The notes under the pieces are model-generated. The model was not told the DNA's origin and did no database searches. It worked only from the letters and a program-made list of their open reading frames with translations. The translations under genes and the position numbers were made by a program. A stretch of 21,044 nucleotides of DNA, taken from IMG/VR virus record IMGVR_UViG_3300028734_000059, positions 1-21,044 of that record. One strand, 5' to 3'. The DNA comes from a virus. Within the stretch, counting starts at the first letter, position 1. Each line of letters starts with the position of its first letter. Below are positions 1 to 12,775 of the stretch, piece by piece.

Positions 1-2
1 TC

Positions 3-1022
3 AGGCTTGAGGCATACGCTATTAACAACAGCACAGGCAACACGGTTTTGCGTGTTGTTGTCTACCCTTGCCCATCATCCGGCACGCAAACGGCTTCTGT
101 TTATGCCGGTGGCGCTCAGGTTGAGCTTGGGAATTACACCACCTCGTATATAAAAACCATGTCCGCTGCCGTGACCCGCTACGCCGACATCAACACCACC
201 ATGATGCTAGGGTCGGTGACTGAACCTTACGGGACTGAAGTAGTCTGGAACGCGGCAACCGCCTATACCGTCGGCATGCAATGCATCCTGACAGCCACCC
301 ATAAAATTTATGAATGCGCGATTGCCAATACCAACTTTATCCCGTCATCGAACATCACCGGCACCTCGCCGAAATGGTTCGTGGTGGGCGCAACCAACCG
401 ATGGCGCGTTTTCGATGAGGTGTATGGATCAACCTCAGACATACCCAGCGTCCTCGGCTTTATCATAACCCCGTATGTCGCTGCCGATAGCCTGGCTTTA
501 TTGAATATCAAAGCCGATACCGTCACCGTCGTGGTAACGGACGTAGGCCCGGTTGTGACCTTGGTTAAAACCTTCGTTTTAACGGGGTTAAGCGACTTTA
601 TCATCAGTGACCTCGGGATGACAGCGACCAGTTCAATCACGATTCAATTAAGGGTTGCAACCGGCAATGTCAGGCTAGGAAAGTTAGTTCTCGGCTCAAA
701 ATTTGAGCTGGGTACTACGCAATACGGTGTTAAAACCGGTATCAACGATTACTCAACAAAAACCATTGATGCCTGGGGCGGTACTACCATCGTCAAGCGC
801 CGCTACTCCAAGCGGCAAAACGTCAACCTCGTTATCGATAACGCCCGGGTTGACCTGGTCTACAATACCCTGGCCGCGTACCGGTCTACGCCTCTGGTAT
901 GGATCGGCGCGGATAATCTTTATTCCATGATGATCCAGTACGGGTATTATCAGAGCTTTGAAATTGATGTCCAATATTATTTAGAAAGTTACTGCACGTT
1001 GGAAATTACAGGATTGACCTAA
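3..1022 (+). CDS. Phage tail protein, C-terminal part (start lies outside the window)
   Basis: The frame is open to the left edge, so this is the C-terminal 339 residues of a longer protein. Near the start is a stretch with GGAQVELGNYTTSYIKT followed by AAVTRYAD. This is the typical end of a concanavalin-like carbohydrate-binding domain in phage tail fibres and receptor-binding proteins. It is followed by WNAATAYTVG and, further on, ATNRWRVFDE, a motif common in siphovirus tail-tip proteins. The role is therefore probably host-surface contact at the tail tip (inference). It is followed with no gap by the gene starting at 1023 and belongs to the late operon that ends at the terminator near 1929. 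The family assignment is from motif recognition only; the exact protein name is uncertain. Confidence 0.75.
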   Translation, partial: RLEAYAINNSTGNTVLRVVVYPCPSSGTQTASVYAGGAQVELGNYTTSYIKTMSAAVTRYADINTTMMLGSVTEPYGTEVVWNAATAYTVGMQCILTATHKIYECAIANTNFIPSSNITGTSPKWFVVGATNRWRVFDEVYGSTSDIPSVLGFIITPYVAADSLALLNIKADTVTVVVTDVGPVVTLVKTFVLTGLSDFIISDLGMTATSSITIQLRVATGNVRLGKLVLGSKFELGTTQYGVKTGINDYSTKTIDAWGGTTIVKRRYSKRQNVNLVIDNARVDLVYNTLAAYRSTPLVWIGADNLYSMMIQYGYYQSFEIDVQYYLESYCTLEITGLT

Positions 1023-1517
1023 ATGAAAAGAATAATTATTGAATACACCCCCCCCGAGGCAAACCAAGCGGGTATTTTTCACCTGCCGCAAAGCGCCATT
1101 GCGATTCAGTACGAGGGTAAACTCTACATAGATTATATCGTTGACAGTGCCACAGAATCACCGGCAGGCGCGTACTATATAGGCGAGATGTTAGCTGATG
1201 GTAGCGTCGTCGATACCGTCGGCAATGCCAGCGAATTTCCGCATGTTTTCGCAGGCTGGGACCGAAAAACCCCGGACGCTGAACTCATGGCAGCCGTATC
1301 GATTACGCCCCGCCAGGCACGGTTGATCTTGTTGGAACATGGTTTTTTAGATGCCGTTGAGGCGATGGTTGCCCAGCAACCGGAATCCGTCAGGATTCAA
1401 TGGGAATACGCCATCGATATAAAGCGCAATGACCCTTTAGTTTGCGCGTTACTTGAAGGCATGGGACAAACACCGGAGCAAATAGACACGCTGTTTATGC
1501 TCGCTAAAACCTTGTAA
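1023..1517 (+). CDS. Tail-fibre-assembly-type protein
   Basis: 164 residues, starting at the ATG directly after the stop of the upstream tail gene. The C-terminal half carries a pattern often seen in small phage tail-fibre proteins: ITPRQARLILLEHGFLDAVE, then IQWEYAID, then PEQIDTLFMLAKTL at the very end. Proteins with this tail sit next to receptor-binding proteins and are often annotated as tail fibre or assembly proteins. The N-terminal part is not recognised. A run of eight C bases (1048-1055) lies in codons 9-11; a one-base slip there would shut the gene off. It is co-transcribed with the tail gene before it and the holin after it. Confidence 0.6.
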   Translation: MKRIIIEYTPPEANQAGIFHLPQSAIAIQYEGKLYIDYIVDSATESPAGAYYIGEMLADGSVVDTVGNASEFPHVFAGWDRKTPDAELMAAVSITPRQARLILLEHGFLDAVEAMVAQQPESVRIQWEYAIDIKRNDPLVCALLEGMGQTPEQIDTLFMLAKTL

Positions 1518-1521
1518 CGCC

Positions 1522-1884
1522 ATGCAAGAAACCTCAGACCCCAGCACCTGGCCAGTAGTCACCTGGGTCATCGCCTTAAGCATGGCCTTAAGCGGTGGCT
1601 TGATCAACTGGCTTGGAAACAGCAAGTCCATCAAGGACGGGCACTTTAAAATATTCGAGTTGTTTGGTGAACTCTTCACCTCTGGCTTTGTTGGTGTGGG
1701 TATTTTTATGCTCACCGATTCAGTAGGACAACCCATGGGTGTGAGTGCCGCCTGTGCTGGAATCGGGGGACATATGGCGACACGTTTCCTGTTCCTGGTT
1801 GAGCGTATTATCGAGTCCAGATTGTTGAAGGCCAGTGTTGATGTTGAGAAAGACGATGTCAAAACAAACTTGCTAGATAAGTGA
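1522..1884 (+). CDS. Holin, LydA / holin superfamily III type
   Basis: 120 residues with several hydrophobic segments: about residues 11-30 (VVTWVIALSMALSGGLINWL), about 50-64 (FTSGFVGVGIFML), and a third weaker one around 72-92 rich in Ala and Gly. The C-terminus is charged and ends in KDDVKTNLLDK. This layout (short N-terminus, membrane segments, polar tail, conserved GGLINWL-type turn) matches LydA-like phage holins, which permeabilise the inner membrane so a cytoplasmic endolysin can reach the wall. It is the last gene before a strong terminator, as is common for lysis genes. The only endolysin seen is far away at 14996, across the attachment site, so lysis genes are split. No clear Shine-Dalgarno precedes the ATG. 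Confidence 0.7.
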   Translation: MQETSDPSTWPVVTWVIALSMALSGGLINWLGNSKSIKDGHFKIFELFGELFTSGFVGVGIFMLTDSVGQPMGVSAACAGIGGHMATRFLFLVERIIESRLLKASVDVEKDDVKTNLLDK

Positions 1885-1903
1885 TAAAACAAGCCTTGGA
1901 ATA

Positions 1904-1929
1904 CGGACGCCTGGCGCGTCCTTTTTTTT
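1904..1929 (+). terminator. Rho-independent terminator of the late operon
   Basis: A GGACGC stem (1905-1910), five-base loop and GCGTCC (1916-1921) are followed directly by eight T residues (1922-1929). It lies 20 bases after the holin stop and ends the rightward late operon. Confidence 0.9.
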
Positions 1930-1944
1930 GCCTGAAATATAGTG

Positions 1945-1970
1945 AAGCAATAATGAAGCAATTATTGCTT
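1945..1970. repeat. Perfect 10-bp inverted repeat beside the attachment region
   Basis: AAGCAATAAT (1945-1954) and its exact complement ATTATTGCTT (1961-1970) are separated by six bases and followed by a short T run. It could be a second, AT-rich terminator readable from both sides, or a site bound by integrase or an excision factor. The sequence alone cannot decide. Confidence 0.6.
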
Positions 1971-2059
1971 TTTATGATGCTTAATCATGAATACTAATAA
2001 ATTAATAACTTTATAAATATCAATAAACTACGATTTAACTAATTGATAAACAATCTATG

Positions 2060-2112
2060 TCGTGGGATTCATAACCCCGGGGTCGGTGGTTCAAGTCCAC
2101 CTATCGCCACCA
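2060..2112 (+). other. attP core: 3' half of a tRNA-CAU gene
   Basis: The 3' part of a class I tRNA is present: anticodon loop TTCATAA (2068-2074, anticodon CAT 2070-2072), five-base variable loop, T-arm GGTGG/TTCAAGT/CCACC (2085-2101), acceptor strand TATCGCC (2102-2108), discriminator A and encoded CCA (2110-2112). No 5' acceptor strand (expected GGCGATA) or D-arm lies upstream, so this is not a functional tRNA gene. Phages that integrate in the anticodon-loop-to-3'-end part of a tRNA carry exactly this piece, so that the host gene is restored. The integrase gene starts 110 bases downstream. The remaining 1971-2222 is AT-rich, without genes, and suits integrase arm sites and the int promoter; I see no exact repeats in it. 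The bacterial target would be tRNA-Met or the CAU tRNA-Ile. Confidence 0.85.
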
Positions 2113-2222
2113 TAAAATCAAAGGGTTAAGAAATTCTAAAATAAATAACCGTGGCATAAAAAGCATTCTGTAAGCACTAAGGAAAATTTACAGTTATTTT
2201 TTTTGCGTTTATATTTTCTCTC

Positions 2223-3209
2223 TTGGCTAATATTTTGGAGAAAGTAATCGCCACATTCACCCAAAAAAAAACAGGCTGGTATTGCCAAGTCAGGCGTAAG
2301 GGACATAAAAGCATTGGACGCACGTTTAACACCAAAGGCGATGCCGAACGATGGGCTTTAAAAATTGAATCCGATATGGGTATCGGTGTCTACCAGGACA
2401 ATCGCGAAACCCTGTCAACCTCATTGGCCGAATGCCTGGATCGTTATGCATCTGAAATAATGCCGTTAAAAAAGGGCGCGGTTCGGGAAAAATACCGTAC
2501 TGCTCTTTGGAAAAAAAGTCACTTGGCAGGTAAGGGGATAGGCACTATCAGACAAGTTGATATGGCTATATGGCGTGATACACGGCTTTCCGAAGGTATC
2601 AGTGGAAGTACGGTAACAAAAGACCTGGCTTTCCTGTCCCATGTGTTCACTATTGCTATAAAGGAATGGGGGATGCCACTGATTAATCCGGTTGCCATGA
2701 TACGGCTACCTAAACCCAATAGCTCACGGGATCGGCGCTTATACGAAGGCGAGGAACAACTGATATTAAATAATTGCTCCGCAGAATTAAAAGCCTATGT
2801 CACGCTAGCCATTGAAACCGCGATGCGGCGCGGGGAGCTGGTTGGACTTCAGCGTAAATGGATCAGGGGAAAAGTGGCTTATTTACCGGAAACGAAAGGG
2901 GGGGTATCGCGTGACGTACCCTTATCAACCGAGGCGCTTAAAGCGATTAACAGCTTGCCACTTCGGTTGGATGGCCGATTGTTTGAGTTTCAGGCTGACC
3001 ATTACAGCAAGGCGTTTTTAAAAGCATGTCGTAAAGCGGGTATTACGGGGTTGAATCTTCATGACTTACGCCATGAGGCACTTTCAAGGATGGCCGAGAA
3101 AGGGCTTTCTATTCTGGAATTAAAAGCTATTGGTGGCCATAAGACCGTTGAAATGCTGTCTAAATATGTGCGGTTGAATCCAGACGATCTAGCTAACAAG
3201 CTGGGCTAA
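2223..3209 (+). CDS. int: Tyrosine-recombinase phage integrase
   Basis: 328 residues. The catalytic set of tyrosine recombinases is visible: R202 in AMRRGELVGL, K225 in ETKGG, H280 and R283 in LHDLRHEA, H306 in GGHKT, and the nucleophile Y315 in SKYVRL. Residues 1-60 form an arm-binding-type N-terminal domain, and about 65-165 the core-binding domain. It catalyses site-specific insertion and excision, here presumably at the tRNA-CAU sequence just upstream. The start is a TTG; the frame has no ATG or GTG between the upstream stop at 2178 and this codon, and no good Shine-Dalgarno is seen, so the start is uncertain. A run of nine A residues lies in codons 13-16. The gene converges with the AlpA-type gene, the two stops overlapping by 4 bases. 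Confidence 0.95.
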   Translation: MANILEKVIATFTQKKTGWYCQVRRKGHKSIGRTFNTKGDAERWALKIESDMGIGVYQDNRETLSTSLAECLDRYASEIMPLKKGAVREKYRTALWKKSHLAGKGIGTIRQVDMAIWRDTRLSEGISGSTVTKDLAFLSHVFTIAIKEWGMPLINPVAMIRLPKPNSSRDRRLYEGEEQLILNNCSAELKAYVTLAIETAMRRGELVGLQRKWIRGKVAYLPETKGGVSRDVPLSTEALKAINSLPLRLDGRLFEFQADHYSKAFLKACRKAGITGLNLHDLRHEALSRMAEKGLSILELKAIGGHKTVEMLSKYVRLNPDDLANKLG

Positions 3210-3430
3210 ACTGCCAAGCGTGGCCGTCCACGTTTCTTTCCTGAAGCCAGCATAGCGCCATCACCGAGCTTTTCAGACCATTCGACCAATTCAGAATGCC
3301 GCCATAGAACCCGAGTACCTACACGCACGGGCTTAGGGAATCTTCCCTCGATCACCAGACGGTTAATCGTGCTGATACTGAGCGATACCGCCGAGACTGT
3401 TTCTTCTTTATCAAGCAATATTTTAAGCAT
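3206..3430 (-). CDS. AlpA/excisionase-type HTH regulator
   Basis: 74 residues with the winged-HTH layout of the AlpA/MerR-like excisionase group. It starts with KILLDKEETVSAVSLSISTI, then the recognition region NRLVIEGRFPKPVRVGTRVLWR, then a helix with HSELVEWSEKL. The basic tail GKKRGRP is AT-hook-like. Such proteins regulate integrase or act as recombination directionality factors. Its place next to, and facing, the integrase gene supports an excision role (inference). It is the last gene of the leftward early operon. Start chosen at the ATG at 3430; the Shine-Dalgarno is weak. Confidence 0.8.
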   Translation of the reverse strand: MLKILLDKEETVSAVSLSISTINRLVIEGRFPKPVRVGTRVLWRHSELVEWSEKLGDGAMLASGKKRGRPRLAV

Positions 3431-3485
3431 AGTCTAAATAACCGCTTCTTCAAAAATGTCGGTCTGTGGGTTGTTTTCCAGGCGT

Positions 3486-4163
3486 TTATTCTTTTAAACT
3501 ACCGAACATATCAATCTGATTACCCTTGCCAAAATTAGCCACCAGCGCCATCAGCGCGTTGTGCATTTCCGGTTCCACTCGTACAATTCCATCCTTGCTG
3601 TAGCCTTGTAAGTAAGCCCAACCCTTTTCAGTAATAAATTTTTTATAGACGGGTTTATAGTCGATTTCTATTCTAACCAAGTCTAATACTTCCATCTTTT
3701 TAAAAAACTTATGGGCTTCAAGAGGACTTCCGCCGATGACGCTGGAAATACAATTAGGGTCTTTAGGGATAGAGGTTTTTAGTTTGGCTTGTAGTTCTTC
3801 GAGTTGGGCGTGTTCTTCGGTAACTTTTTTATCGTAGGTTTGAATGACTTCATGGTGGAACTCTACGCTTAACCAAATCGCGTAACTGTATACCAAATCT
3901 TTGACCGCATACGTACCTGAAAACTCACCACCCTTAATTATTTCGATAGGCTGGATGCCCACACCAAAGTGAGAATTTACACCGTTAATTTCTAAAAAAT
4001 CGACATACTTTTGAGCTGTTTTTGTCCTTAGCCAATCGGTCGGTCTATCACTTTCATCAGCCAATCCCATTTTTTTAGCGGCGTTATACAAGTCGGTAAG
4101 ACTATAGCGGTTATCGGCATCGACGTTGATGGTTATGCCGTGTATTTGTATTGCGTCATTCAT
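3486..4163 (-). CDS. KilA-N domain DNA-binding protein, possible antirepressor
   Basis: 225 residues from the ATG at 4163; a GTG four codons further upstream (4175) is an alternative. Residues about 1-110 form a KilA-N domain: IHGITINVDADNRYSLTDLY, then WLRTKTAQKYVDFLE, and GTYAVKDLVYSYAIWLSVEF. The part after a charged linker (about 115-140) has KDPNCISSVIGGSPLEAHKF and later ITEKGWAYLQGY, a winged-helix-like region. KilA-N proteins of phages bind DNA, and several act as antirepressors or regulators. Since the repressor at 8175-8606 has no self-cleaving domain, an antirepressor would be a natural way to induce this prophage; that is inference. Confidence 0.75.
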   Translation of the reverse strand: MNDAIQIHGITINVDADNRYSLTDLYNAAKKMGLADESDRPTDWLRTKTAQKYVDFLEINGVNSHFGVGIQPIEIIKGGEFSGTYAVKDLVYSYAIWLSVEFHHEVIQTYDKKVTEEHAQLEELQAKLKTSIPKDPNCISSVIGGSPLEAHKFFKKMEVLDLVRIEIDYKPVYKKFITEKGWAYLQGYSKDGIVRVEPEMHNALMALVANFGKGNQIDMFGSLKE

Positions 4164-4187
4164 ACATTTATCCACTGTTCATAAAAA

Positions 4188-4568
4188 TCAATCATACGAA
4201 TATCCCCTGTTTAACAGCGCCGGTCTAAAATTAAGAATCCACCATTTTTTATACCCGGAATAAACAAACGGCTCGGCTTTTCTCTGGATGCAGTACACAT
4301 CGTCTTCCGATTTTGAATAAACCGGCTGGCTGACAATTTTAAGCCGCTTTTGACGTTCTTCCGCGTCCCTATAGCCACAATGCTTGATTGGGTTGGTTGC
4401 AACCCAGGCCATAAACTCGGCTTTGTCATAGGCCTTGATTTGTCGCCCTGTATTTTTGTTTAGCACAAACACGCATGGAGTCGGTATGCGTCCTGCTTTA
4501 TCCATTTTTGAAATGGTTCCGTGCGCTACGCCTAAAGCAATGGCGGCTTCTTTGGTGGTTATGCACAT
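4188..4568 (-). CDS. Small HTH (MerR/excisionase-like) DNA-binding protein
   Basis: 126 residues from the ATG at 4568. A TTG at 4583 is an alternative, but its only Shine-Dalgarno candidate (GAGAGG) abuts it. The N-terminus reads ITTKEAAIALGVAHGTISKM, followed by AGRIPTP and GRQIKAYDKAEFMAWV: the HTH and wing pattern of short phage and plasmid regulators that also precede KilA-type genes. The C-terminal half (about 60-126) is not recognised and is rich in Tyr and Trp. It lies 24 bases before the KilA-N gene and directly after the 75-aa gene at 4588-4815, so the three are co-transcribed. Confidence 0.65.
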   Translation of the reverse strand: MCITTKEAAIALGVAHGTISKMDKAGRIPTPCVFVLNKNTGRQIKAYDKAEFMAWVATNPIKHCGYRDAEERQKRLKIVSQPVYSKSEDDVYCIQRKAEPFVYSGYKKWWILNFRPALLNRGYSYD

Positions 4569-4587
4569 GGCGATGTCTATCAACCTC

Positions 4588-4815
4588 TCAAATCCAGCTT
4601 TCTATCACGCTGCGATGGTCATTTTCTGAACGATTTATTCTAACAAGCTCATGGTCTGAGTAGTTTTGAATCTTTCCCCGCAAGTCCTCAAGCCCTGAAG
4701 CTCTCAAAATACTTTTTGTCGGCTGGTCAAGTTCAAACATTCTTGCCACATACTCATTCGGAAAATCTTTAGGGCTAAAGTAGATTGTCCATATTTCTAA
4801 TTTTGGTTTTTCCAT
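4588..4815 (-). CDS. Conserved small phage protein, function unknown
   Basis: 75 residues, no family recognised. Good Shine-Dalgarno GAGGG seven bases before the ATG, and the gene begins 1 base after the recT stop, so translation is tightly linked to recT. Visible features are a short N-terminal strand (KLEIWTIYFSPKD), a central FELDQPTKSILRASGLEDLR and a polar tail. It is probably a soluble protein. The coding case rests on spacing, ribosome site and placement inside a dense operon. Confidence 0.65.
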   Translation of the reverse strand: MEKPKLEIWTIYFSPKDFPNEYVARMFELDQPTKSILRASGLEDLRGKIQNYSDHELVRINRSENDHRSVIESWI

Positions 4816-4816
4816 A

Positions 4817-6055
4817 TCAATCCCTCAAAAAATCCAGCTTTTCATCCAGCAATTGCCTGAACTTAGCCTGATCGTGATCCGACATGATTTCAATTTGATC
4901 AATCAAGGCCTGTTTTTCATTGCAGGATTCAATCTCAAACGCCCAGTTTTTATCAACCGGCCTGGCTTCTTTCTTCAAAGCCGCTTGGCGTTTGGTAAAC
5001 GCGTTCTTGGCGGTCTTACCGGCTTCGTTGTCCAGTTCGGCCATGGCGATATGTACCAGCTCCTGCTCCTCAACGGTTTTAGCCTCGCGAATCGTAGCCA
5101 GCACTTTACCTAATGCGTAAGGGTCAGGTTTTTGTGGTGTTTGTAATGGCTCAACGAACGGCAGTTCATCATCAGGAATGGAATAGATTTCGCCGGTTTC
5201 TTCATTGATGGTTTCTTCAGGTTCGGGTTCGGCTATGGGCGCGTCATTTATTTCTGTGACGATCCCGCTTTCAATCGTACTGGAGTAGTCTACCTTTTTA
5301 CCTATTTCGGCCTTATCATCGACGGCAAGCGCGGTTGCAACTTGTCGGGTATCGCCTACAGGCAGCAGTTTAGCCAGCTTTTTAACGGCTTTTCCGATAG
5401 CCATTTCAATGTACCAATCTTTCCAGATGCCTTGTGGGGTAGTCGCCCCGCGTTGGTTAGGAGACACTAGCCGCAACTTCTCAATGACTTTTTTAGCCAC
5501 GAACACGCTGTACTCGTCCTTAGTGTCCGAGTTACGGGCAATGACGAAAACGCCGCGTAAATGGGCATAGGACCACGCTGAATCACCTTCATCGCGTTCA
5601 TCCAGATCAGGCGTAAATTGTACCCGGTTATCCCAGCCATCCCAGGCCATGCTAAATTCATCACAATCAAAGACAGGAAAGGCTTTAACCAGCCAGCCAG
5701 CCCTAAACAACAACTGAATCCAGCCTTTATAGCCCAGTTGTAGGGTGCACTGGTCTTTATAGCCAATTAAATACGCTTGTCCAAGGTTCTTATCGACAGA
5801 AAGATTAGCCATCGCCACGCCAATTAATGACTGGACAATTGATTCCGGTGAACAATTACGCAGGGCAGGGTCATTAGCCACCACCAAGGAAGCCGCTAAA
5901 AACTTGTTGGCTTTGGTTTCATCCTCCAGCAACGAGGTTATTTGCCGTTTAGACTGTAACAGCACCGCCTTGAGCTGGTCCGCACGGGGCAGGTCTGCGA
6001 GTCTTACGGGGGGCTTGTTGCCATTTATTAAGGCAGACTTTAATTGTGCTGACAT
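4817..6055 (-). CDS. recT: RecT-family single-strand annealing protein with long acidic tail
   Basis: 412 residues from the ATG at 6055, which has Shine-Dalgarno AGGA nine bases upstream; an upstream ATG at 6115 would overlap the preceding gene and has no such support. Residues about 15-235 match the RecT/Bet-like core: LPRADQLKAVLLQSKRQITS, LAASLVVANDPALRNCSPES, NLGQAYLIGYKDQCTLQLGY (the family hallmark) and KKVIEKLRLVSP. Its role is annealing of complementary single strands in phage recombination, working with a 5'-3' exonuclease. That partner is the YqaJ gene just upstream in the operon. RecT proteins are usually around 270 residues. Here about 150 extra residues follow, beginning with an acidic, proline-rich linker (about 275-320) and ending in a charged helical region. 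Confidence 0.9.
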   Translation of the reverse strand: MSAQLKSALINGNKPPVRLADLPRADQLKAVLLQSKRQITSLLEDETKANKFLAASLVVANDPALRNCSPESIVQSLIGVAMANLSVDKNLGQAYLIGYKDQCTLQLGYKGWIQLLFRAGWLVKAFPVFDCDEFSMAWDGWDNRVQFTPDLDERDEGDSAWSYAHLRGVFVIARNSDTKDEYSVFVAKKVIEKLRLVSPNQRGATTPQGIWKDWYIEMAIGKAVKKLAKLLPVGDTRQVATALAVDDKAEIGKKVDYSSTIESGIVTEINDAPIAEPEPEETINEETGEIYSIPDDELPFVEPLQTPQKPDPYALGKVLATIREAKTVEEQELVHIAMAELDNEAGKTAKNAFTKRQAALKKEARPVDKNWAFEIESCNEKQALIDQIEIMSDHDQAKFRQLLDEKLDFLRD

Positions 6056-6056
6056 A

Positions 6057-6239
6057 TCAGTAATTCCTATTGTTATTTTTTTGACGTTCAAAATGTTTTT
6101 TCGCTGATTGCTCATGATCTAAGCCGTCATGGTAATCATCATTAACCCTGTCCATATCAAGGTTGTCAGGATTTCCACCGGAACGCCAAACATCATAAAA
6201 AACATCATTCTCATAATCGTATTCTTCTTTTCTGCTCAC
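6057..6239 (-). CDS. Small acidic phage protein between exonuclease and RecT
   Basis: 60 residues, very hydrophilic, rich in Asp, Glu, Asn and Tyr (YDYENDVFYDVWRSGG, then DDYHDGLDHEQSAKKHFERQ). It starts at a GTG with an excellent Shine-Dalgarno (TAGGAG, seven bases away), and its stop overlaps the Shine-Dalgarno zone of recT. No family is recognised. The position between the two recombination genes suggests an accessory role or simply translational coupling. Confidence 0.65.
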   Translation of the reverse strand: MSRKEEYDYENDVFYDVWRSGGNPDNLDMDRVNDDYHDGLDHEQSAKKHFERQKNNNRNY

Positions 6240-6248
6240 GGTAAACTC

Positions 6249-7232
6249 CTACTTAATGAGTAAAGGCCTGATACCAGGCACAGTCTTGGTGTTTTCACGT
6301 AGGTATTGGGTAAGAACATCCGAGATACCTTCCATTTGCGGGTTATTTTTAAAACTGTTTAGCCAACCTGTAAAATCAGCGACGGCTTTTTCATAACCTA
6401 CTTTCGTTGAGTCCTTATTATTCTTCCATGAGCAAATGGTACTGCCTGCATACTGTAACAACGCCGAATCGCCCATGACTTTCTTTAAGTTGGTTGTCAG
6501 CTCGACAATCAGGCCGTCCAAGTCTTTGGCATCGGTTTTAAGCCGCTTAATCTCTTGGCAAAGGTTCAGGAGGTTGTCGTCGGCTTCGAGGATCGTGCCT
6601 AAGTCGTGCTTGAACAACCGGGCAACATCGTTAGCGGTTTTGGGTTCTGGCGGTATCCTTGGGATAACATGGTTATGCCAAAATGCGCCGCCTTCCCGAA
6701 TTAAAACAGCTTCTATTTCCAGATCCCGTTCTATCCTGAATTCTTTGTAAGAATTGCCACCAAACAGCGCGGCAATAATGGCAAAATCCGCGTCCATGAC
6801 AGCCATATAAAAAGCCACTTGTGCGGCGTAGGACAGCGGCACTTGGTCACTGTTTTCAAAGCCCCAGCTATCGCTAGCGAAGGCGTTAACCGTCTTGATC
6901 TCTAAAATGCCACGATTACCCTGGTCATCATCAAAAAGACCATCCACATTAGCCAGCATCCATTCATGTTGTGGGTGCATGGCAATCGGTACGTTACGCA
7001 TCACTTCAAAATCAGGATGCTCCCTTGAAAACCGTTCAGCAATGGGTTGTTCGAGTGCATGACCCCAGTAAAAATGCTCCTGATGCTCCTGTTCCAGCTT
7101 GGGTTCTGTTTTGTCGAAGTAAACATCGAGGGCGGATTTATATTGGCTCACGCCGATCACCGCCCCAATATCAGAACCGCCCAGGCCCGATTGACGGGCT
7201 TGTAAAAATTCATAATTTGCTTGGGGTTCCAT
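6249..7232 (-). CDS. YqaJ-like / lambda-exonuclease-type viral recombinase nuclease
   Basis: 327 residues from the ATG at 7232. AAAGGTGA lies upstream at good spacing, and the A of this ATG is shared with the stop of the preceding 45-aa ORF. The fold signature of PD-(D/E)XK exonucleases of the YqaJ group is visible: RQSGLGGSDIGAVIGVSQYK (13-32), WGHALEQPIAERF (56-68, E61), NVDGLFDD with D97, ILEIKT with E111 and K113, and the QVAFYMAVM segment (138-146). It would resect 5' strands at double-strand ends, giving the substrate for RecT. With recT it forms a RecET/Red-like recombination pair used in replication and repair of the phage genome. Confidence 0.88.
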   Translation of the reverse strand: MEPQANYEFLQARQSGLGGSDIGAVIGVSQYKSALDVYFDKTEPKLEQEHQEHFYWGHALEQPIAERFSREHPDFEVMRNVPIAMHPQHEWMLANVDGLFDDDQGNRGILEIKTVNAFASDSWGFENSDQVPLSYAAQVAFYMAVMDADFAIIAALFGGNSYKEFRIERDLEIEAVLIREGGAFWHNHVIPRIPPEPKTANDVARLFKHDLGTILEADDNLLNLCQEIKRLKTDAKDLDGLIVELTTNLKKVMGDSALLQYAGSTICSWKNNKDSTKVGYEKAVADFTGWLNSFKNNPQMEGISDVLTQYLRENTKTVPGIRPLLIK

Positions 7233-7369
7233 CAAATCACCTTTATCAATGCCGCTGCAATCAGCGTAAGCATAATTGCAGTTAGGGTTTTAGCGCGGGT
7301 GTCAGCCGCTTTTAGAGGGGTTGTTTGTTCAAGCAGCCAGGAGCGGTCAGCCCAGTCGGGTTGTTTCAT
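7232..7369 (-). CDS. 45-residue membrane-anchored ORF coupled to the exonuclease
   Basis: This short frame starts at an ATG (7369) behind AGGAAAAAGCAA. That ribosome site is identical for 15 bases, start codon included, to the one of the exported protein at 7706. Its stop TGA overlaps the exonuclease ATG as TGATG. The product begins MKQPDWADRSWLLEQT, has a polar middle, and ends in one hydrophobic segment (about 30-45: TAIMLTLIAAALIKVI) at the extreme C-terminus, as in a tail-anchored membrane peptide. No family recognised. The ribosome site, overlap and plausible membrane segment support a real gene. Confidence 0.65.
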   Translation of the reverse strand: MKQPDWADRSWLLEQTTPLKAADTRAKTLTAIMLTLIAAALIKVI

Positions 7370-7397
7370 TTGCTTTTTCCTGTGTAAACTCTAAAAA

Positions 7398-7706
7398 TTA
7401 ATGGTTCAGGGCTTCGTAGTTGGTGTATGCAATAGCGTTTGTTCCGTTTCCGTATATCCGTACTTTCGACGTTCCCAGCAGGCCACGATCCAACGTGGTG
7501 TACTTTAAGGCCCCCTCCGTAGTTATGACACACGAACCGTTTAGAAGTAGCGCCTTAAATTGCTCTACATCGTGCTTTACGAGGGCATGGACCATTTCCT
7601 TAAAAGCGTCCTCAGTGGTACATAAAGGGTAATCCTTTTTTAAGGTTGCTGCGGTTGCTGACGTTGAAATCAGGGCTATCATGGCGGCTGTTAATAATTT
7701 GTTCAT
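7398..7706 (-). CDS. Small exported protein, first gene of the leftward early operon
   Basis: 102 residues. A clear Sec signal peptide occupies 1-20 (Lys at 3, hydrophobic core LLTAAMIALIS, cleavage after ATA-A). The mature part of about 82 residues has exactly two cysteines, C29 and C59, which can form one disulfide in the periplasm. The pattern PLCTTEDAFKEMVHALVKHD and a later LNGSC resembles small periplasmic proteins of unknown function found in many proteobacteria. It starts behind AGGAAAAAGCAA. As the first gene after the repressor-controlled leftward promoter, it is placed like lambda early accessory genes. A role in host change or superinfection exclusion is possible but is only an inference. 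Confidence 0.75.
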   Translation of the reverse strand: MNKLLTAAMIALISTSATAATLKKDYPLCTTEDAFKEMVHALVKHDVEQFKALLLNGSCVITTEGALKYTTLDRGLLGTSKVRIYGNGTNAIAYTNYEALNH

Positions 7707-7808
7707 TTGCTTTTTCCTATGAAGTTAAAAGAATGGCCTGAATCTCACAGACCTGCCGTTAGAAATCGAGAGAGGCGATTTAACGGATAATTTGCTCCGG
7801 TGTGGGTA

Positions 7809-7836
7809 ATTATACGCTATCGTATATTTTAATCAA
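7809..7836 (-). promoter_or_regulatory. Leftward early promoter (pL-like)
   Basis: Read on the minus strand, TTGATT (7831-7836) and TATAAT (7809-7814) are 16 bases apart. Operators cover both elements. It faces the operon beginning with the exported protein at 7706. Confidence 0.7.
7811..7826. promoter_or_regulatory. Repressor operator OL1 (TATACG-N4-CGTATA)
   Basis: Perfect inverted repeat with six-base arms and a four-base centre. It overlaps the -10 element and spacer of the leftward promoter and shares the ATACG-N4-CGTAT core with the site at 8665-8678. Confidence 0.75.
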
Positions 7837-7849
7837 TACGTAATCGTAT
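7836..7849. promoter_or_regulatory. Repressor operator OL2 (ATACG-N4-CGTAT)
   Basis: Perfect five-base arms around TAAT, centred 24 bases from the first leftward operator. It begins at the -35 element of the leftward promoter. Confidence 0.75.
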
Positions 7850-7900
7850 AATTTAGGGAAAATAAATATTATTACACCCAGTCGCCTTATTTCGGGCAAT

Positions 7901-7923
7901 AAAAAACCCGCACCAGGCGGGTT
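7901..7923 (-). terminator. Rho-independent terminator of the repressor operon
   Basis: AACCCGC (7905-7911), five-base loop and GCGGGTT (7917-7923); on the minus strand the stem runs straight into a T tract (7901-7906). It lies 25 bases after the coiled-coil gene and insulates the repressor transcript from the leftward early promoter. Confidence 0.88.
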
Positions 7924-7947
7924 GATTGTATAAGGTATTGAGATTTA

Positions 7948-8178
7948 CTAATTTATGCTATCAGATAACTCAAGGCGACGCTCTATGCGCTCAAGTCGTT
8001 TTGAAAAGCTATCCAGCCGACTTTTGACTTGTGCTAAATCAACGTGAAGAAATGCAGTGGATTGTTCTATTGAGGATACGCGACCTGTCAGCATATCCAC
8101 TTTTTCATCTAAAGATTCAAGTGATTTTCTGATATGTTTTAAATGTTCTAAAACAATATTGTCTATATTATCAGTCAT
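7948..8178 (-). CDS. Small coiled-coil protein co-transcribed with the repressor
   Basis: 76 residues, almost entirely predicted helix with heptad-like spacing: IVLEHLKHIRKSLESLDEKV, MLTGRVSSIE, VKSRLDSFSKRLERIERRLEL. The ending RLERIERRLEL is typical of a common family of short coiled-coil proteins in proteobacteria and phages whose function is unknown. Its ATG overlaps the repressor stop (ATGA, 8175-8178), so the two are translationally coupled. It might modulate the repressor's oligomer state, but nothing in the sequence shows that directly. Confidence 0.7.
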   Translation of the reverse strand: MTDNIDNIVLEHLKHIRKSLESLDEKVDMLTGRVSSIEQSTAFLHVDLAQVKSRLDSFSKRLERIERRLELSDSIN

Positions 8179-8606
8179 TTTTTATTAGCCATCCTCTCAT
8201 AAGTCTCTGAATCGGGCTCATGGGCTAGTGTGAGCCTGCCTTCCATGGCGTTTGTTAATTGGGTTTTTTCGGGTTCCGGTGGGTTTTTTGAATTATGTTT
8301 AGGATTAACCATTGATTTTATAATTAATTCAAGGCTACTAATTTGCTCACTGGATAATTTACTCATTAATTCATTAATGGTTTTAATTCTACTATCTAAC
8401 ACATTATCAAAACCCCTTAATTCTGCTTCAGTCGCATCAAGTCCTTTAGCTAGTTTTTGAATGGTGCTTGATCTTGGATCGCCATGTTTGCCACTCAAAA
8501 ATCGCTGAATCGTAGGTTGTGGAACCTCTGATTTTTCAGAAAGAGTATAAGGGTTTAGGCCCTTCTCAATCATTTTTTTTCTTATATTTTCTCTCAATGT
8601 GTCCAT
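8175..8606 (-). CDS. Phage repressor, HTH_XRE type, without peptidase domain
   Basis: 143 residues from the ATG at 8606. A longer frame exists, but it would run through the divergent promoter region and begins with unlikely sequence. The N-terminal 65 residues form a lambda-repressor-like HTH: LRENIRKKMIEKGLNPYTLS, EKSEVPQPTIQRFLSGKHGD, STIQKLAKGLDATEAELRG. The C-terminal half (about 70-143) is polar and helical with a Pro-rich linker. It has no LexA/CI-type S24 fold or Ser-Lys catalytic motif, so RecA-driven self-cleavage is unlikely. It sits back-to-back with a Cro-like gene and between four copies of the same operator, which is the reason for calling it the immunity repressor. Confidence 0.85.
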   Translation of the reverse strand: MDTLRENIRKKMIEKGLNPYTLSEKSEVPQPTIQRFLSGKHGDPRSSTIQKLAKGLDATEAELRGFDNVLDSRIKTINELMSKLSSEQISSLELIIKSMVNPKHNSKNPPEPEKTQLTNAMEGRLTLAHEPDSETYERMANKK

Positions 8607-8612
8607 TTGTCC

Positions 8613-8641
8613 AATGTAGAGCGATGGAACATTAGAATCAA
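8613..8641 (-). promoter_or_regulatory. Repressor promoter (pRM-like), predicted leaderless
   Basis: On the minus strand TTGATT (8636-8641) and TACATT (8613-8618) are 17 bases apart. Only six bases separate the -10 from the repressor ATG, so transcription would start at or next to the start codon, as for lambda cI from pRM. Operator 8642-8655 abuts the -35, the position from which a repressor can activate its own promoter. Confidence 0.6.
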
Positions 8642-8655
8642 ACACGTTGGCGTAT
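8642..8655. promoter_or_regulatory. Repressor operator OR2-like (ACACG-N4-CGTAT)
   Basis: One-mismatch copy of the operator. It is adjacent to the repressor promoter's -35 and touches the -35 of the cro promoter. Its centre is 23 bases from the perfect copy at 8665-8678. Confidence 0.65.
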
Positions 8656-8683
8656 TGACTACCAATACGTTTGCGTATATTAT
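8655..8683 (+). promoter_or_regulatory. Rightward early promoter (pR-like), predicted near-leaderless
   Basis: TTGACT (8655-8660), 17-base spacer and TATTAT (8678-8683). The cro ATG at 8692 is eight bases after the -10, so the transcript would have almost no leader. Confidence 0.65.
8665..8678. promoter_or_regulatory. Repressor operator OR1-like (ATACG-N4-CGTAT)
   Basis: Perfect inverted repeat lying inside the spacer and first -10 base of the rightward promoter, where binding would block cro transcription. Confidence 0.75.
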
Positions 8684-8691
8684 CTGTTGTT

Positions 8692-8886
8692 ATGAAATTA
8701 AACATACAAAAAATACTCACCGATATAAGAAATACGGGATTAACTGACCGAGAAATAAGTATGCTCATTGGTACTTCACAGGCAACTATTCATAGAGTAC
8801 GTACAGGCGTACATAAGAACTCGCATTACGCGTTAAATATTTACCAATTAGCAAAAAAAATACGCCCCGATCTTTACACTGATTAA
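8692..8886 (+). CDS. Cro-like HTH protein
   Basis: 64 residues from the ATG at 8692; a TTG further upstream lies inside the operator and is rejected. The HTH is seen in LTDREISMLIGTSQATIHRV, followed by RTGVHKNSHYALNIYQLAKK. It is a small basic DNA-binding protein divergent from the repressor, the position of Cro. It would bind the same ATACG-N4-CGTAT sites to favour lytic growth (inference from layout). No Shine-Dalgarno is seen, in keeping with a near-leaderless message. Confidence 0.8.
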   Translation: MKLNIQKILTDIRNTGLTDREISMLIGTSQATIHRVRTGVHKNSHYALNIYQLAKKIRPDLYTD

Positions 8887-9030
8887 ATATGTGAAGCAGT
8901 AATTAACCAGTAATCAAGACAAAGTAAAGCAACTGAGTTTGAGCGTGGCTAGGTTATCGAGACTGAAAACGCTGTCCCTTACGGTGCTGCCAGGCTCTCT
9001 TTTTTAAGGGGTTATTGAAGGAATAACGCG

Positions 9031-9345
9031 ATGCGCAATGATTTTGAATGGGGAGCACTAGAAGAAGTGTTCCAGGAGTATTACCCGGATTTGAGCTTTA
9101 CCCGGTCGTTCATTATTTCGATCTGGAAGAACTTTTCAGACAGTTTTAGTGATAACGCACTGGTTAATTTTATGATGATTGCCTGTGAGAATACGGAAAC
9201 CGCAGAGCGTGCCACGAAATACTTTTGTGGTATCTGCTGGCGCAAGATTAAAAGCGGAGACCTTGGAGAGGAAGAGGCAATGCTTCAGCGCCGGTTTTAC
9301 CCCAAGCAACCTGAAGACAGGCAGGCAGATAAAACGCTGCATTAG
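9031..9345 (+). CDS. Early phage protein of unknown function
   Basis: 104 residues, no family recognised. It has a strong ribosome site (GAAGGAA, seven bases before ATG). The sequence is soluble and aromatic-rich: FEWGALEEVFQEYYPDLSF, then FIISIWKNFSDSFSDNALV, then TERATKYFCGICWRKI, with a charged tail. The ATKYFCGICWRKIKSGD part resembles C-terminal helices of phage replication-linked proteins, but not enough to name it. It is the first gene after cro in the rightward operon. The 144 bases before it (8887-9030) hold no gene I can support. Confidence 0.65.
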   Translation: MRNDFEWGALEEVFQEYYPDLSFTRSFIISIWKNFSDSFSDNALVNFMMIACENTETAERATKYFCGICWRKIKSGDLGEEEAMLQRRFYPKQPEDRQADKTLH

Positions 9346-9357
9346 CGCTAAAGAACA

Positions 9358-9394
9358 CCCCGGATTAATGAGGTCCGGGGCTTAAAACACTTTT
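9358..9394 (+). terminator. Probable terminator hairpin after the 104-aa gene
   Basis: CCCCGGA (9358-9364) and TCCGGGG (9374-9380) form a perfect seven-pair stem with a nine-base loop. The following sequence has only a broken T tract (9391-9394), so termination may be partial or antiterminated. Confidence 0.55.
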
Positions 9395-9451
9395 ATTACA
9401 TAGGAAAAAGCATGGTTATTTTATCAGGTTTTAAGGTTCGGTCAAATTGAA

Positions 9452-9748
9452 TCACGCCGCATGGCCCTTAAGCCACTCCTTGAGCGCATCATTCATTCGC
9501 GTCTGCCAGCCCTTGCCCGTAGCGCGAAAATACTCTACTACTTCGGGGCTGTACCTGACTGATAGTAATATCTTACGGTGCAGCAATTTTGGCCGTCCCG
9601 CCCGTATGAGTTTCTCACCCTCGTACAAATCGGCGCTTTCGAAAAATTCATCTGTCAATTCAGGCAATTCATCATATTCGTCCTGCGTGATGACATGGGC
9701 GTCAAACTTGCCCCAGTCTCTCGGTGTACTTTTTAATTTCTCTGTCAT
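9452..9748 (-). CDS. brnA: BrnA-family antitoxin
   Basis: 98 residues. The C-terminal part matches BrnA antitoxins: KILLSVRYSPEVVEYFRATG, then GKGWQTRMNDALKEWL, a ribbon-helix-helix DNA-binding domain. The N-terminal 50 residues are acidic (DEYDELPELTDEFF), the usual toxin-wrapping region. Shine-Dalgarno GAGG lies eight bases before the ATG. It overlaps the end of brnT by 47 bases, so both are made from one message. BrnA neutralises BrnT and, with it, represses their promoter (known for the Brucella system); the palindromes upstream fit this. It lies opposite to the surrounding rightward genes, as an inserted cassette would. Confidence 0.9.
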   Translation of the reverse strand: MTEKLKSTPRDWGKFDAHVITQDEYDELPELTDEFFESADLYEGEKLIRAGRPKLLHRKILLSVRYSPEVVEYFRATGKGWQTRMNDALKEWLKGHAA

Positions 9749-9980
9749 TGGCTTTCCTCATTGTGAACACATGCCGGTCATTGCCGCGCTGGACCCATCC
9801 GACAACCACTATACGCACGCCCAGATAGCCAACGGTGATTTGCCGACATTCGCCATAATCAGCCCGGTTATCCAAAAAAGTGAAGTGGCGGCCTGCAAAA
9901 ACCTCGGCGGCTTCCAAAAAATCAATGCCCCTATCAGCAAGGGTTTTATCTCGTTTAGAAGGGTCATAAGTAATTTTCAT
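9702..9980 (-). CDS. brnT: BrnT-family ribonuclease toxin
   Basis: 92 residues from the ATG at 9980; the longer frame would start upstream of the promoter. Family hallmarks are present: ITYDPSKRDKTLADRGIDFL, EAAEVFAG, DNRADYGECRQITVGYLG, and HVFTMRKANDREIKKY at the end. BrnT is a RelE-fold RNase that stops translation when its antitoxin is lost. In a phage it can stabilise the prophage or act against other phages. A good promoter sits directly upstream. No Shine-Dalgarno is visible. Confidence 0.9.
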   Translation of the reverse strand: MKITYDPSKRDKTLADRGIDFLEAAEVFAGRHFTFLDNRADYGECRQITVGYLGVRIVVVGWVQRGNDRHVFTMRKANDREIKKYTERLGQV

Positions 9981-9986
9981 GTTGAA

Positions 9987-10002
9987 TATTGTAGCTACAA
10001 TA
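9987..10002. promoter_or_regulatory. Palindromic brnTA operator, proximal
   Basis: Perfect 16-base palindrome TATTGTAGCTACAATA covering the -10 of the brnTA promoter. Confidence 0.75.
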
Positions 10003-10016
10003 ATAAGCAAAGTCAA
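9988..10016 (-). promoter_or_regulatory. brnTA promoter
   Basis: On the minus strand TTGACT (10011-10016), 17-base spacer and TACAAT (9988-9993), seven bases before the brnT ATG. Confidence 0.75.
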
Positions 10017-10019
10017 TTT

Positions 10020-10033
10020 ATTGTAACTACATT
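10020..10033. promoter_or_regulatory. brnTA operator, distal copy
   Basis: ATTGTAACTACATT differs from the proximal palindrome core at two of 14 positions and lies just upstream of the -35, giving paired sites for cooperative repression. Confidence 0.6.
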
Positions 10034-10086
10034 TGACAACGCCAGGCTGCACCCCGAGACGGCTATGAGGCTGAAGAAGATATCGG

Positions 10087-10422
10087 ATGACAACTGAAGA
10101 ATTAGAATTTATCTGTGGACATGTGGTTAAACGCTCATTCTCTGATGAAATAAGAATGATAGAAAGAGCCTATTTTATTAAATTAGATGATCATTTAATT
10201 CCTCAATTTTATTATGAGATTTTAAAAGATCAATTTGTATTCAATTTGGTTGTTAGCGTTAGCGAGAAAGAGAGTGAATTACTAATAAAAAATGCGCTTA
10301 GAGACCATGCCCGGTCAAGCAAATATTTTCCAAGGCCAGAAGAAATAATACAGCTTATTAAATATAACCATTACCACGGAAAGGCATTTTTTAATAATGA
10401 TGATGATTGTTTTGAAGATTAG
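10087..10422 (+). CDS. AT-rich early protein of unknown function
   Basis: 111 residues, no family recognised. It is soluble, rich in Ile, Lys, Asn and Phe, with an acidic end (NNDDDCFED). Visible segments are IRMIERAYFIKLDDHLIP, FVFNLVVSVSEKESELLI and YFPRPEEIIQLI. The DNA is visibly more AT-rich than the genes on either side, as is the first half of the next gene, suggesting a different origin or recent gain. It lies directly between the brnTA promoter and the replication gene and ends two bases before that gene's ATG. Confidence 0.65.
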   Translation: MTTEELEFICGHVVKRSFSDEIRMIERAYFIKLDDHLIPQFYYEILKDQFVFNLVVSVSEKESELLIKNALRDHARSSKYFPRPEEIIQLIKYNHYHGKAFFNNDDDCFED

Positions 10423-10424
10423 TC

Positions 10425-11366
10425 ATGAAATGGTTTAAGCATTTATCGACCGCAAGAAATGACGAGAAGATTGCTCGTCTTGAAGATAAGTGCGGATTAG
10501 AGGGCTATGGATTTTATTTCAAGATGCTCGAGATTGTTGCTGAATATGTCGATCAATCCAATCGATGTGAAGTTACTTTTAGCATGTCCAGATGGGGTAG
10601 AAAAACTAACATCAGCACTAAAAAATTTTTGCATTTAGTCCGATGTTGCTCTGACGTTGGTCTGATGTTGGTCCAACGTGCTTCTGACGATATAACTGTA
10701 AATATTCCCAACTTATTGAATTATAGAGATAACCATACTAAAAACTTACAAGCTACTTATAAGCAAGATAAATATAAAGAAGAAACAGATATAAAAGAAG
10801 TACTACGTACTCCTTTTACTTCTTGTCCTGAGCAAAAAAGCTCAGAACAGCAAACGCCGGAAATGGAGTCCGAAAAATTCTCAGGGAATGACGGAATAGC
10901 GACCGTCAAAACACACTCTCTCGTCATTGTCGAATTGCCGACGAACAAGACCGGGGAATTTTATGCAGTGACGCAAAGCGATGTGTGCGAATGGGAATCG
11001 CTCTATCCGGCTGTGGATGTCGGTCAGCAATTGCGTAATATGCTGGGATGGTTGAAAAGCAATCCCAAGCGCAGGAAAACCAAAAGCGGGTTGTCCCGGT
11101 TTGTGAATAGCTGGCTGGCTAAAGAACAAAACGACGGGCATAAAAAAAGCCAGAACGCTCCTCCAGGCAAGGTGAATGGTTCTGACTTATTTTCTAAAAA
11201 CAACGAATACAGCGGTGAAGATTATGACACACAAGAAGAAAACAATGAAACCCATTCTCCAACTGGTCGAAAACTCTGCCTTATGGAGCTTGAAGAACAA
11301 GCAGGAAGGCGGCTCGAAGCAAGATTACGACGAGAACAACTCGAACGGGAAAGAACCGTCAACTGA
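10425..11366 (+). CDS. Phage replication initiator, Lin1244/Lin1753 (DUF4373) N-domain
   Basis: 313 residues. The N-terminus MKWFKHLSTARNDEKIARLE with GLEGYGFYFKMLEIVAEYV and MSRWGRKTNIS is the winged-helix domain found in DnaD-like and lambda-O-like phage replication proteins. A variable polar middle (about 115-170) follows. The region about 185-235 (WESLYPAVDVGQQLRNMLGW, then SGLSRFVNSWLAKEQ) is the typical C-terminal DNA-binding or helicase-loader contact seen in such proteins. It would bind the phage origin, often located inside the gene itself. It overlaps the next gene by 143 bases in another frame if both starts are right. The charged tail (RRLEARLRREQLERER) falls in that overlap. Confidence 0.82.
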   Translation: MKWFKHLSTARNDEKIARLEDKCGLEGYGFYFKMLEIVAEYVDQSNRCEVTFSMSRWGRKTNISTKKFLHLVRCCSDVGLMLVQRASDDITVNIPNLLNYRDNHTKNLQATYKQDKYKEETDIKEVLRTPFTSCPEQKSSEQQTPEMESEKFSGNDGIATVKTHSLVIVELPTNKTGEFYAVTQSDVCEWESLYPAVDVGQQLRNMLGWLKSNPKRRKTKSGLSRFVNSWLAKEQNDGHKKSQNAPPGKVNGSDLFSKNNEYSGEDYDTQEENNETHSPTGRKLCLMELEEQAGRRLEARLRREQLERERTVN

Positions 11367-11946
11367 ATGCTTAAGCGATCAGGTTATTTTTCATCTGTGG
11401 AAACGCATGTTGTCGATTTACGGTTACAAGTGGGCTAGCCATATGGGCCTTTCAACCGATGCAAAAGGCCATTTGTCCGATGCGGCTAAAACATGGCAGC
11501 AAGGGTTATCAGGCCTCGGCATTGATCAGGTTAAGATCGGTTTTGACATGTTGATTTCAAAGTCGTGCGAATGGCCGCCGTCATTGCCCGAGTTCAGGAA
11601 ATTGTGCTTGAGCAAAAAAATGGAGGACATTCCAACATCTGAGCAGTGCGTCAATGTGTTGGTCTCCGTGTCTGGGAAGACAGGGAGTATCAAGTCCCGG
11701 TATGGTCATCCGTTGATTTTTTGCATAGCCAGCCAGGTTGATATGCATATTTTGCGGACGGTGAGGACAGTAACCGCAATAAAAACCATCATGCCGATTT
11801 ACGAGAGATTATTGCTGAAAGGTTTTCCAGGCTGGCCTGATTATGCGTTAACCGAACAAAAGGCGCTTAAGGCGGACAAAAGGCCGGTTGATCTGGAGAA
11901 AAGCCGGAGTCACTTTGCCAGCTTTTGTGAAAAATTGGAAATCTAA
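11224..11946 (+). CDS. Lambda P-like replication protein (helicase loader)
   Basis: 240 residues from the ATG at 11224 (GGTGAAG upstream at good spacing); ATG 11245 is an alternative. Key region: VIFHLWKRMLSIYGYKWASH, then WQQGLSGLGIDQVKIGFDML, and SCEWPPSLPEFRKLCLS. This is the pattern of phage P proteins that bring the host DnaB helicase to the initiator at the origin. The length is close to lambda P (233 residues). It follows an initiator gene exactly as P follows O in lambda. The first 48 codons overlap the initiator's end in a different frame, an unusually long overlap; the conserved part begins only after it. Confidence 0.75.
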   Translation: MTHKKKTMKPILQLVENSALWSLKNKQEGGSKQDYDENNSNGKEPSTECLSDQVIFHLWKRMLSIYGYKWASHMGLSTDAKGHLSDAAKTWQQGLSGLGIDQVKIGFDMLISKSCEWPPSLPEFRKLCLSKKMEDIPTSEQCVNVLVSVSGKTGSIKSRYGHPLIFCIASQVDMHILRTVRTVTAIKTIMPIYERLLLKGFPGWPDYALTEQKALKADKRPVDLEKSRSHFASFCEKLEI

Positions 11947-11948
11947 CC

Positions 11949-12149
11949 ATGCACAACGAAACCCTCCGAATCCTGCGTGATCTAGTCGACTGGGTGAACG
12001 AGCTCAAAGCCGAACGCTACGGGCATCGTAGACTCGGCGGCTTGGAGCAGGAAGACTATTTGCAGTTGCTCAATACGGTCGAGGCAGCCAACCGGCATTT
12101 GGTCGTTTTGCAAAGGCAAGCAGAAGATGAGAGTAAAACGGTGTTTTAA
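11949..12149 (+). CDS. Small helical protein, unknown function
   Basis: 66 residues, no family recognised. Mostly helical and charged: RILRDLVDWVNELKAERYGH, then EDYLQLLNTVEAANRHLVVL. It starts two bases after the P-like gene, with no clear Shine-Dalgarno, so it is probably translated by coupling. It may assist replication, judged only by place. Confidence 0.6.
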   Translation: MHNETLRILRDLVDWVNELKAERYGHRRLGGLEQEDYLQLLNTVEAANRHLVVLQRQAEDESKTVF

Positions 12150-12154
12150 CGAAC

Positions 12155-12775
12155 GTGAAGGCACCTAGAAGACACGATAATGAAAAAGTAGCATCTTTTA
12201 CCGAGATAAAAAAAATGAAAGCTAAAATACGCCCTAGGAACGTAAACTATCACGACACGATAAAACAATACTCCAGCAGTTTGGGCGCCGTGCATTTGGC
12301 GTTTCATCAAACGCAGGAAGAGGCCATTGAGCGAGTTAGGCAAGCAACTGAATTGTACAAGGCGAATAGGCCGTATAAACACCTAATAGAGCGACGTGAG
12401 ATACCCGCCACGCCACGAAAACAAAAAACGACGATAAAGATAGCGACTCAAGTTGAAATCGTGCCTGAAATCGTGCCTCAGTTAATCCGTGATGAAAACT
12501 ATAATGCGGACAGTATAAAAATACTGACACCTGACCAGGCCAGTGAAAAATTTGGTTGGGTAAACGAAGCCGAGTTAGCCAAAAAATATAGCCGTGATCC
12601 GGCTTGGATTGCCAACGGACTCGAAGCCTGCCGTCGCTGCGGCGTAGAGCAGGATTATTTTATAAACCGCTATCTTGAGGCCGATAAAACCATCCCGCAA
12701 AAGGAATGGGTCAGCGAAGTGTTTATTGATTTGCTGAAAGAACAAAAGATTTATGGGAGTTACACAAAATGCTAG
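12155..12775 (+). CDS. Basic early protein, unknown function
   Basis: 206 residues if the GTG at 12155 is used; an in-frame ATG at 12215 (MKAKIRPRNV) is an alternative giving 186. The N-terminal half is basic (Lys, Arg, His-rich). The middle has a direct repeat EIVPEIVP encoded by two copies of a 12-base unit. The C-terminal part (about 125-206: GWVNEAELAKKYSRDPAWIA, then CRRCGVEQDYFINRYL) looks like a compact helical domain. No family is recognised. Its stop overlaps the ATG of the next gene. Confidence 0.65.
   Translation: MKAPRRHDNEKVASFTEIKKMKAKIRPRNVNYHDTIKQYSSSLGAVHLAFHQTQEEAIERVRQATELYKANRPYKHLIERREIPATPRKQKTTIKIATQVEIVPEIVPQLIRDENYNADSIKILTPDQASEKFGWVNEAELAKKYSRDPAWIANGLEACRRCGVEQDYFINRYLEADKTIPQKEWVSEVFIDLLKEQKIYGSYTKC

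Follow-up and report, generated by a model that had tools for sequence, protein, structure and literature searches.

The window analysed here corresponds to a complete IMG/VR record (21,044 bases) and displays the following features around a tRNA fragment near its left end:

3..1022, plus strand: C-terminal part of a late tail-associated protein, truncated at the window start (phrog_6278, 2.4e-50; phrog_5939 'tail protein', 5.5e-6)
1023..1517, plus strand: late protein of unknown function, 164 aa (phrog_6034, 2e-16)
1522..1884, plus strand: holin (superfamily III, LydA type; PF16083, 5.5e-12; phrog_785 holin)
1905..1929, plus strand: intrinsic terminator of the late operon (6-bp stem with 5 G-C pairs, followed by eight T)
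1943..2617, plus strand: segment replaced in the sister contig G006 (attP arms, core and integrase residues 1–131), delimited by the breakpoints relative to the window
1945..1951, plus strand: putative arm-type repeat of the left arm, AAGCAAT (motif scan)
1956..1962, plus strand: putative arm-type repeat of the left arm, AAGCAAT, 11 bp after the first repeat
1964..1970, minus strand: putative arm-type repeat of the left arm, AAGCAAT inverted (motif scan)
2064..2128, plus strand: attP core, comprising tRNA-Met(CAU) from the anticodon stem to CCA (2064–2112) and 16 nt of 3' flank
2161..2167, plus strand: putative arm-type repeat of the right arm, AAGCATT (motif scan)
2172..2178, plus strand: putative arm-type repeat of the right arm, AAGCACT, 11 bp after its neighbour
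2223..3209, plus strand: tyrosine integrase (PF00589, 1.1e-21; phrog_1)
3206..3430, minus strand: AlpA-type excisionase/regulator (PF05930, 1.9e-8; phrog_66)

The integrase gene is followed to the right by the AlpA-type regulator and early genes and, farther on, by genes for RecT, YqaJ/RecE, a repressor, replication proteins, an endolysin, terminase, portal, MuF and a neck protein. The tail-associated reading frame cut off by the window start is 508–510 aa long in the related contigs G001 and G006 (complete in L024/L033). The window also encodes a BrnT/BrnA toxin-antitoxin pair (9452–10052, minus strand) and a MuF-like head protein whose C-terminal part forms a PBECR2 nuclease domain (19245–20495; PF18810, 9e-22), in the manner of a MuF polymorphic toxin.

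The sequence TTCATAACCCCGGGGTCGGTGGTTCAAGTCCACCTATCGCCACCA occupies positions 2068–2112 and represents a tRNA 3' half with anticodon CAU and encoded CCA. ARAGORN detected no complete tRNA in the window, which agrees with the earlier note's description of a 3' half devoid of its 5' half, and a function as working tRNA gene was rejected for lack of the latter. The presence of the tRNA segment was correctly recognized but its limits were drawn too narrowly, since the host-shared segment begins at 2064 and extends up to 2128: identity with the tRNA-Met of most hosts covers 2064–2112, while Methylobacter sp. KS41 shares all 65 nt from 2064 to 2128. The location of the fragment between a terminated late operon (tail-type protein, holin and terminator) on the left and the integrase and AlpA genes on the right was likewise confirmed.

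In a scan of 84,980 species, the exact 44-base core was present in 45 genome stretches, all of them from Methylococcales (Methylobacter, Methyloglobulus, Methylovulum and further Methylococcaceae), so that a chance match can be discounted. Full tRNA-Met genes carrying the core were identified by ARAGORN at four loci (L059, L075, L035 and L036); the complete host tRNA-CAU gene with matching 3' part, which had been suggested as a search target, does exist in Methylobacter-type hosts. It is close to certain that the tRNA fragment is a phage attP, and as such it is an ordinary member of the known class of tRNA-targeting phage attP sites. Many Methylobacter genomes contain extra tRNA-Met 3' halves with a common left flank, attattgtttgttgtg...tttttggga (loci L037, L043, L046, L048, L057, L061, L070, L071, L073, L077 and L078); halves flanked in this way are the mark of another element family that uses the same tRNA.

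The core is bordered by five copies of the motif AAGCANT in 1929–2222, compared to 0.21 expected; this number was reached in 0 of 2000 shuffles, a P value which is optimistic because the motif was picked after viewing the sequences. An initial motif, TGAWGCANT, was only weakly represented in the window (2 matches, P 0.14) and was abandoned in favour of the shorter one. The same layout, i.e., two copies spaced 11 bp apart and a third, inverted one to the left of the core and a further 11-bp-spaced pair to its right, is found in the relatives L082, L084 and L101, each with its own sequence variants. The 11-bp geometry shared by these relatives provides independent support for the putative arm sites.

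The integrase of the window has conserved the catalytic residues R, H-x-x-R, H and Y, and its structure model (pLDDT 85.5) comprises arm-binding, core-binding and catalytic domains, the limits of which were also derived from the match to lambda Int, one of the solved relatives. Translation probably starts at ATC 2247 rather than at TTG 2223: a good GGAG sequence at 2237–2240 precedes the ATC, which aligns with the starts of related integrases and is replaced by ATG in the sister phage and the relatives. The ATC start may lower integrase expression. At the other end of the gene, a 15-bp stretch including the int stop codon (3206–3220) is missing from G001, G004, G005 and G006, where int continues into the antisense alpA gene to give about 391–414 aa.

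Six further IMG/VR contigs (G001–G005 and G007) match the window at 99.8–100 %, and the sister contig G006 at 94.5 %. The earlier note had read the window in circular order as a single phage lacking only its capsid-to-tail middle. This proved correct, with the 38,996-bp contig G001 supplying the missing section (Mu-like head protease, major capsid, head-tail adaptor, tape measure and large tail protein) and G003 and G006 bridging the ends. By alignment, G003 1–10845 corresponds to G001 28152–38996 (100 %) and G003 10083–21210 to G001 1757–12869 (98.8 %), a bridge that closes the genome at 36,477 bases (36.48 kb); G006 also spans this gap but carries a different allele, and the circle then measures 36,597 bases (36.60 kb) as calculated from the coordinates. 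The circular overlap proposed for checking was found as a circle of ~36.5 kb closed by these cross-contig bridges, with no exact terminal overlap of the window, or of any contig, with itself.

Phage DNA is present on both sides of att in eight contigs, i.e., the window, G001–G006 and contig L074 of a metagenome-assembled genome (MAG); G007 ends short of the att region and was excluded from this count. No junction between this phage and host DNA was found among the loci holding the core. The attP is therefore located in circular or permuted phage DNA and not at the edge of a prophage, and we conclude with high confidence that window 1929–2246 constitutes the attP of a tailed, temperate Methylococcales phage (Methylobacter group) with circular or circularly permuted DNA of ~36.5 kb.

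A tandem lysogen, i.e., two head-to-tail chromosomal copies with an inner junction mimicking attP, is very improbable. Contigs alone do not separate a tandem copy from a circle, and binning places the phage in a host MAG; a tandem array, however, implies two host junctions, whereas none of the core loci joins the flank of this phage to host DNA (a lack that is not absolute, since IMG/VR trims the host ends of proviruses) and every one of the eight contigs displays attP. Two different prophages lying side by side and joined at the tRNA fragment, where late genes indeed meet int, can practically be dismissed, because all eight contigs share the junction with the same DNA on either side and these sides close into one 36.5-kb genome with a single terminase, portal, capsid and tail set; among the readings offered by the earlier note, the circular phage thus stands and the adjacent prophages fall.

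The ends of G001 were considered as a true terminal repeat, which was rejected: positions 1–2519 and 36598–38996 (L024, L025) encode a portion of the large tail protein (1518 aa in G006) in two allelic versions with 74–97 % identity, one of which is present in G006 and the other in G003. This two-allele segment is probably a receptor- or baseplate-linked variable region. Minus-strand genes, one of which encodes a GDSL esterase carrying a CE2-type domain at its N-terminus, lie between the neck and head protease genes (L025 5766–8587).

The Methylococcaceae MAG fen_1218 includes contigs of the same phage, one of which matches over 5,029 bases at 99.7 % and spans attP; the portal is also present (100 %). 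A search of 237 genomes from the family yielded relatives and, in the MAG, the same phage as attP, but no integrated copy of the phage itself. Lysogeny at tRNA-Met is for this reason inferred. Relatives with 67–68 % identical integrases use the same tRNA, and one of them (L098, 68 %) lies next to a complete, restored tRNA-Met within a Methylococcaceae genome. During integration, the N-terminal domain of the integrase would bind the AAGCANT arm repeats, and the enzyme would catalyse recombination between the anticodon-stem/loop core and the tRNA-Met(CAU) gene of the chromosome. With its own 3' half, the phage would then restore the tRNA, int lying beside it (attL), and the host 3' half would be displaced to the end of the late genes (attR). 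The att cores of the integrase family have the anticodon stem-loop in common, consistent with a crossover in the anticodon loop.

The sister phage represented by G006 carries a different sequence at this site. Only 1 mismatch occurs in 1860 positions on the left (83–1942) and none in 588 positions on the right (2618–3205), while the intervening block is replaced. Within the int part of this block, substitutions affect 101 of 359 bases and 21 of 119 residues; the two phages have identical catalytic domains. The block in G006 contains ARCCANT arms in a layout similar to that of the window, its own integrase start and, as core, the 3' half of a tRNA-Arg(CCG) at the same distance to int. This core matches the full tRNA-Arg(CCG) of a Methylococcaceae genome in 45 of 45 bases. 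The near-identical pair thus combines different att cores with a matching change in the DNA-binding domains of the integrase. In the structure model, the breakpoint at residue 131 coincides with the start of the fourth core-binding helix, such that the exchange would comprise the arm-binding domain plus three of four core-binding helices and leave the catalytic domain untouched.

From this pair it appears rather probable that attP and the first 131 integrase residues act as one exchangeable cassette, and that the version in G006 fits tRNA-Arg(CCG). With about the same degree of confidence, we favour the view that one natural recombination of ~675 bp, which included the arms, the core, the arm-binding domain and the greater part of the core-binding domain, moved the phage between tRNA-Met and tRNA-Arg in a single step without touching the catalytic domain, and that exchanges of this kind would be the usual retargeting route of the integrase family.

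Alternatively, the swap may be real but limited to the arm sites and the N-terminal domain, with the integrase not using the Arg core. The core-binding domain of G006 is indeed 84 % identical to that of the window (~16 % different) and equally close to those of other Met integrases, so that few residues must carry the specificity change, if it is real; moreover, cluster K mycobacteriophages alter their arm sites while attB remains constant (PMC3203893). This alternative is nevertheless unlikely, considering that a tRNA-Arg(CCG) fragment with a perfect host match lies between the new arms, at an unchanged distance to int.

Even less probable is an assembly chimera of two phages, in which case no cassette swap would have occurred. 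The Arg variant is known from the single 11.3-kb contig G006; IMG/VR searches for a donor with the N-terminal protein and the Arg core as queries retrieved G006 alone, and both breakpoints adjoin conserved sequence. A chimera would, however, require two misjoins, one of them within a coding region and yet frame-preserving, whereas the arms, core spacing and N-terminal domain of G006 are self-consistent. Any donor with k-mers in common at the two joins would in turn have to be a phage of this kind, and comparable domain exchanges occur elsewhere in the family (L104/L108).

The cassette exchange may be viewed against 43 related integrases with assignable tRNA targets (15 targets in total). At a given catalytic identity, pairs sharing a target are more alike in the core-binding domain (residual difference 0.060; 0 of 5000 permutations of the labels); conversely, they are not more alike in the catalytic domain at a given core-binding identity (778 of 5000). 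Judging from these sequences, the tRNA target tends to follow the core-binding rather than the catalytic domain, an association which is a tendency and not proof, because related sequences are not independent. Two integrases of one genome, L104 (near tRNA-His) and L108 (at a tRNA-Arg(CCT) fragment), share 84 % identity in the arm domain and 92 % in the catalytic part as opposed to 36 % in the core-binding part, their target assignments (as that of L105) being less firm because the tRNA is oriented opposite to int. The same pattern applies to L155 (Arg-ACG) versus L168 (Asn), with identities of 0.78 (arm), 0.85 (catalytic) and 0.40 (core-binding). These four represent natural integrase mosaics, alike in arm and catalytic domains, with differing core-binding domains and different tRNAs nearby.

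That phage genomes are mosaic and that integration can target tRNA genes is textbook knowledge, and Williams (2002), cited in PMC3203893, reportedly surveyed the tRNA-gene-targeting tyrosine integrases of temperate phages and islands. The present attP resembles those of such elements in the tRNA 3' part, the adjacent int, the arm repeats on both sides and the predicted restoration of the target on integration, and differs in its Methylococcales host, the observed free circular form and a sister with another tRNA in the same place. Elements with tRNA-targeting integrases are covered by the Islander database (PMC4383910). As cited in PMC8371274, lambda/HK022 is the classic natural specificity change, explored with chimeras. 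The integrase described here shares with these the arm-binding, core-binding and catalytic domains; unlike in lambda/HK022, attP and the DNA-binding part of int were apparently exchanged in one step next to an identical catalytic domain. In cluster K mycobacteriophages, close relatives differ in their arm repeats and, in parallel, in the N-terminal part of the integrase; the K1 members retain the same attB, tmRNA (PMC3203893). The arm repeats of the window and G006 likewise differ along with the N-terminal part, whereas the core in this pair switches from tRNA-Met to tRNA-Arg. The N and C parts of archaeal suicidal integrases of the pT26-2 type also differ in history, and chimeras have been proposed as the source of new targets (PMC8371274). 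Different histories of the two Int parts are a shared trait; in contrast to the att within the gene of the pT26-2 type, att is here located upstream and travels with the N part. No description of a phage pair that is near-identical apart from an exchanged attP and integrase N-terminal part was found in the open-access literature.

With this locus, a temperate phage linked to its host becomes available for the uncultured methane oxidisers of a fen, and the sister cassette turns an ordinary attP into a more interesting natural experiment. How tyrosine recombinases change specificity without passing through an unfit intermediate is still murky according to a review (PMC8371274). Since little differs near att between the window and G006 except a short cassette, and the catalytic domain is identical, this pair makes the question of specificity directly testable with four short DNA sites and two proteins.
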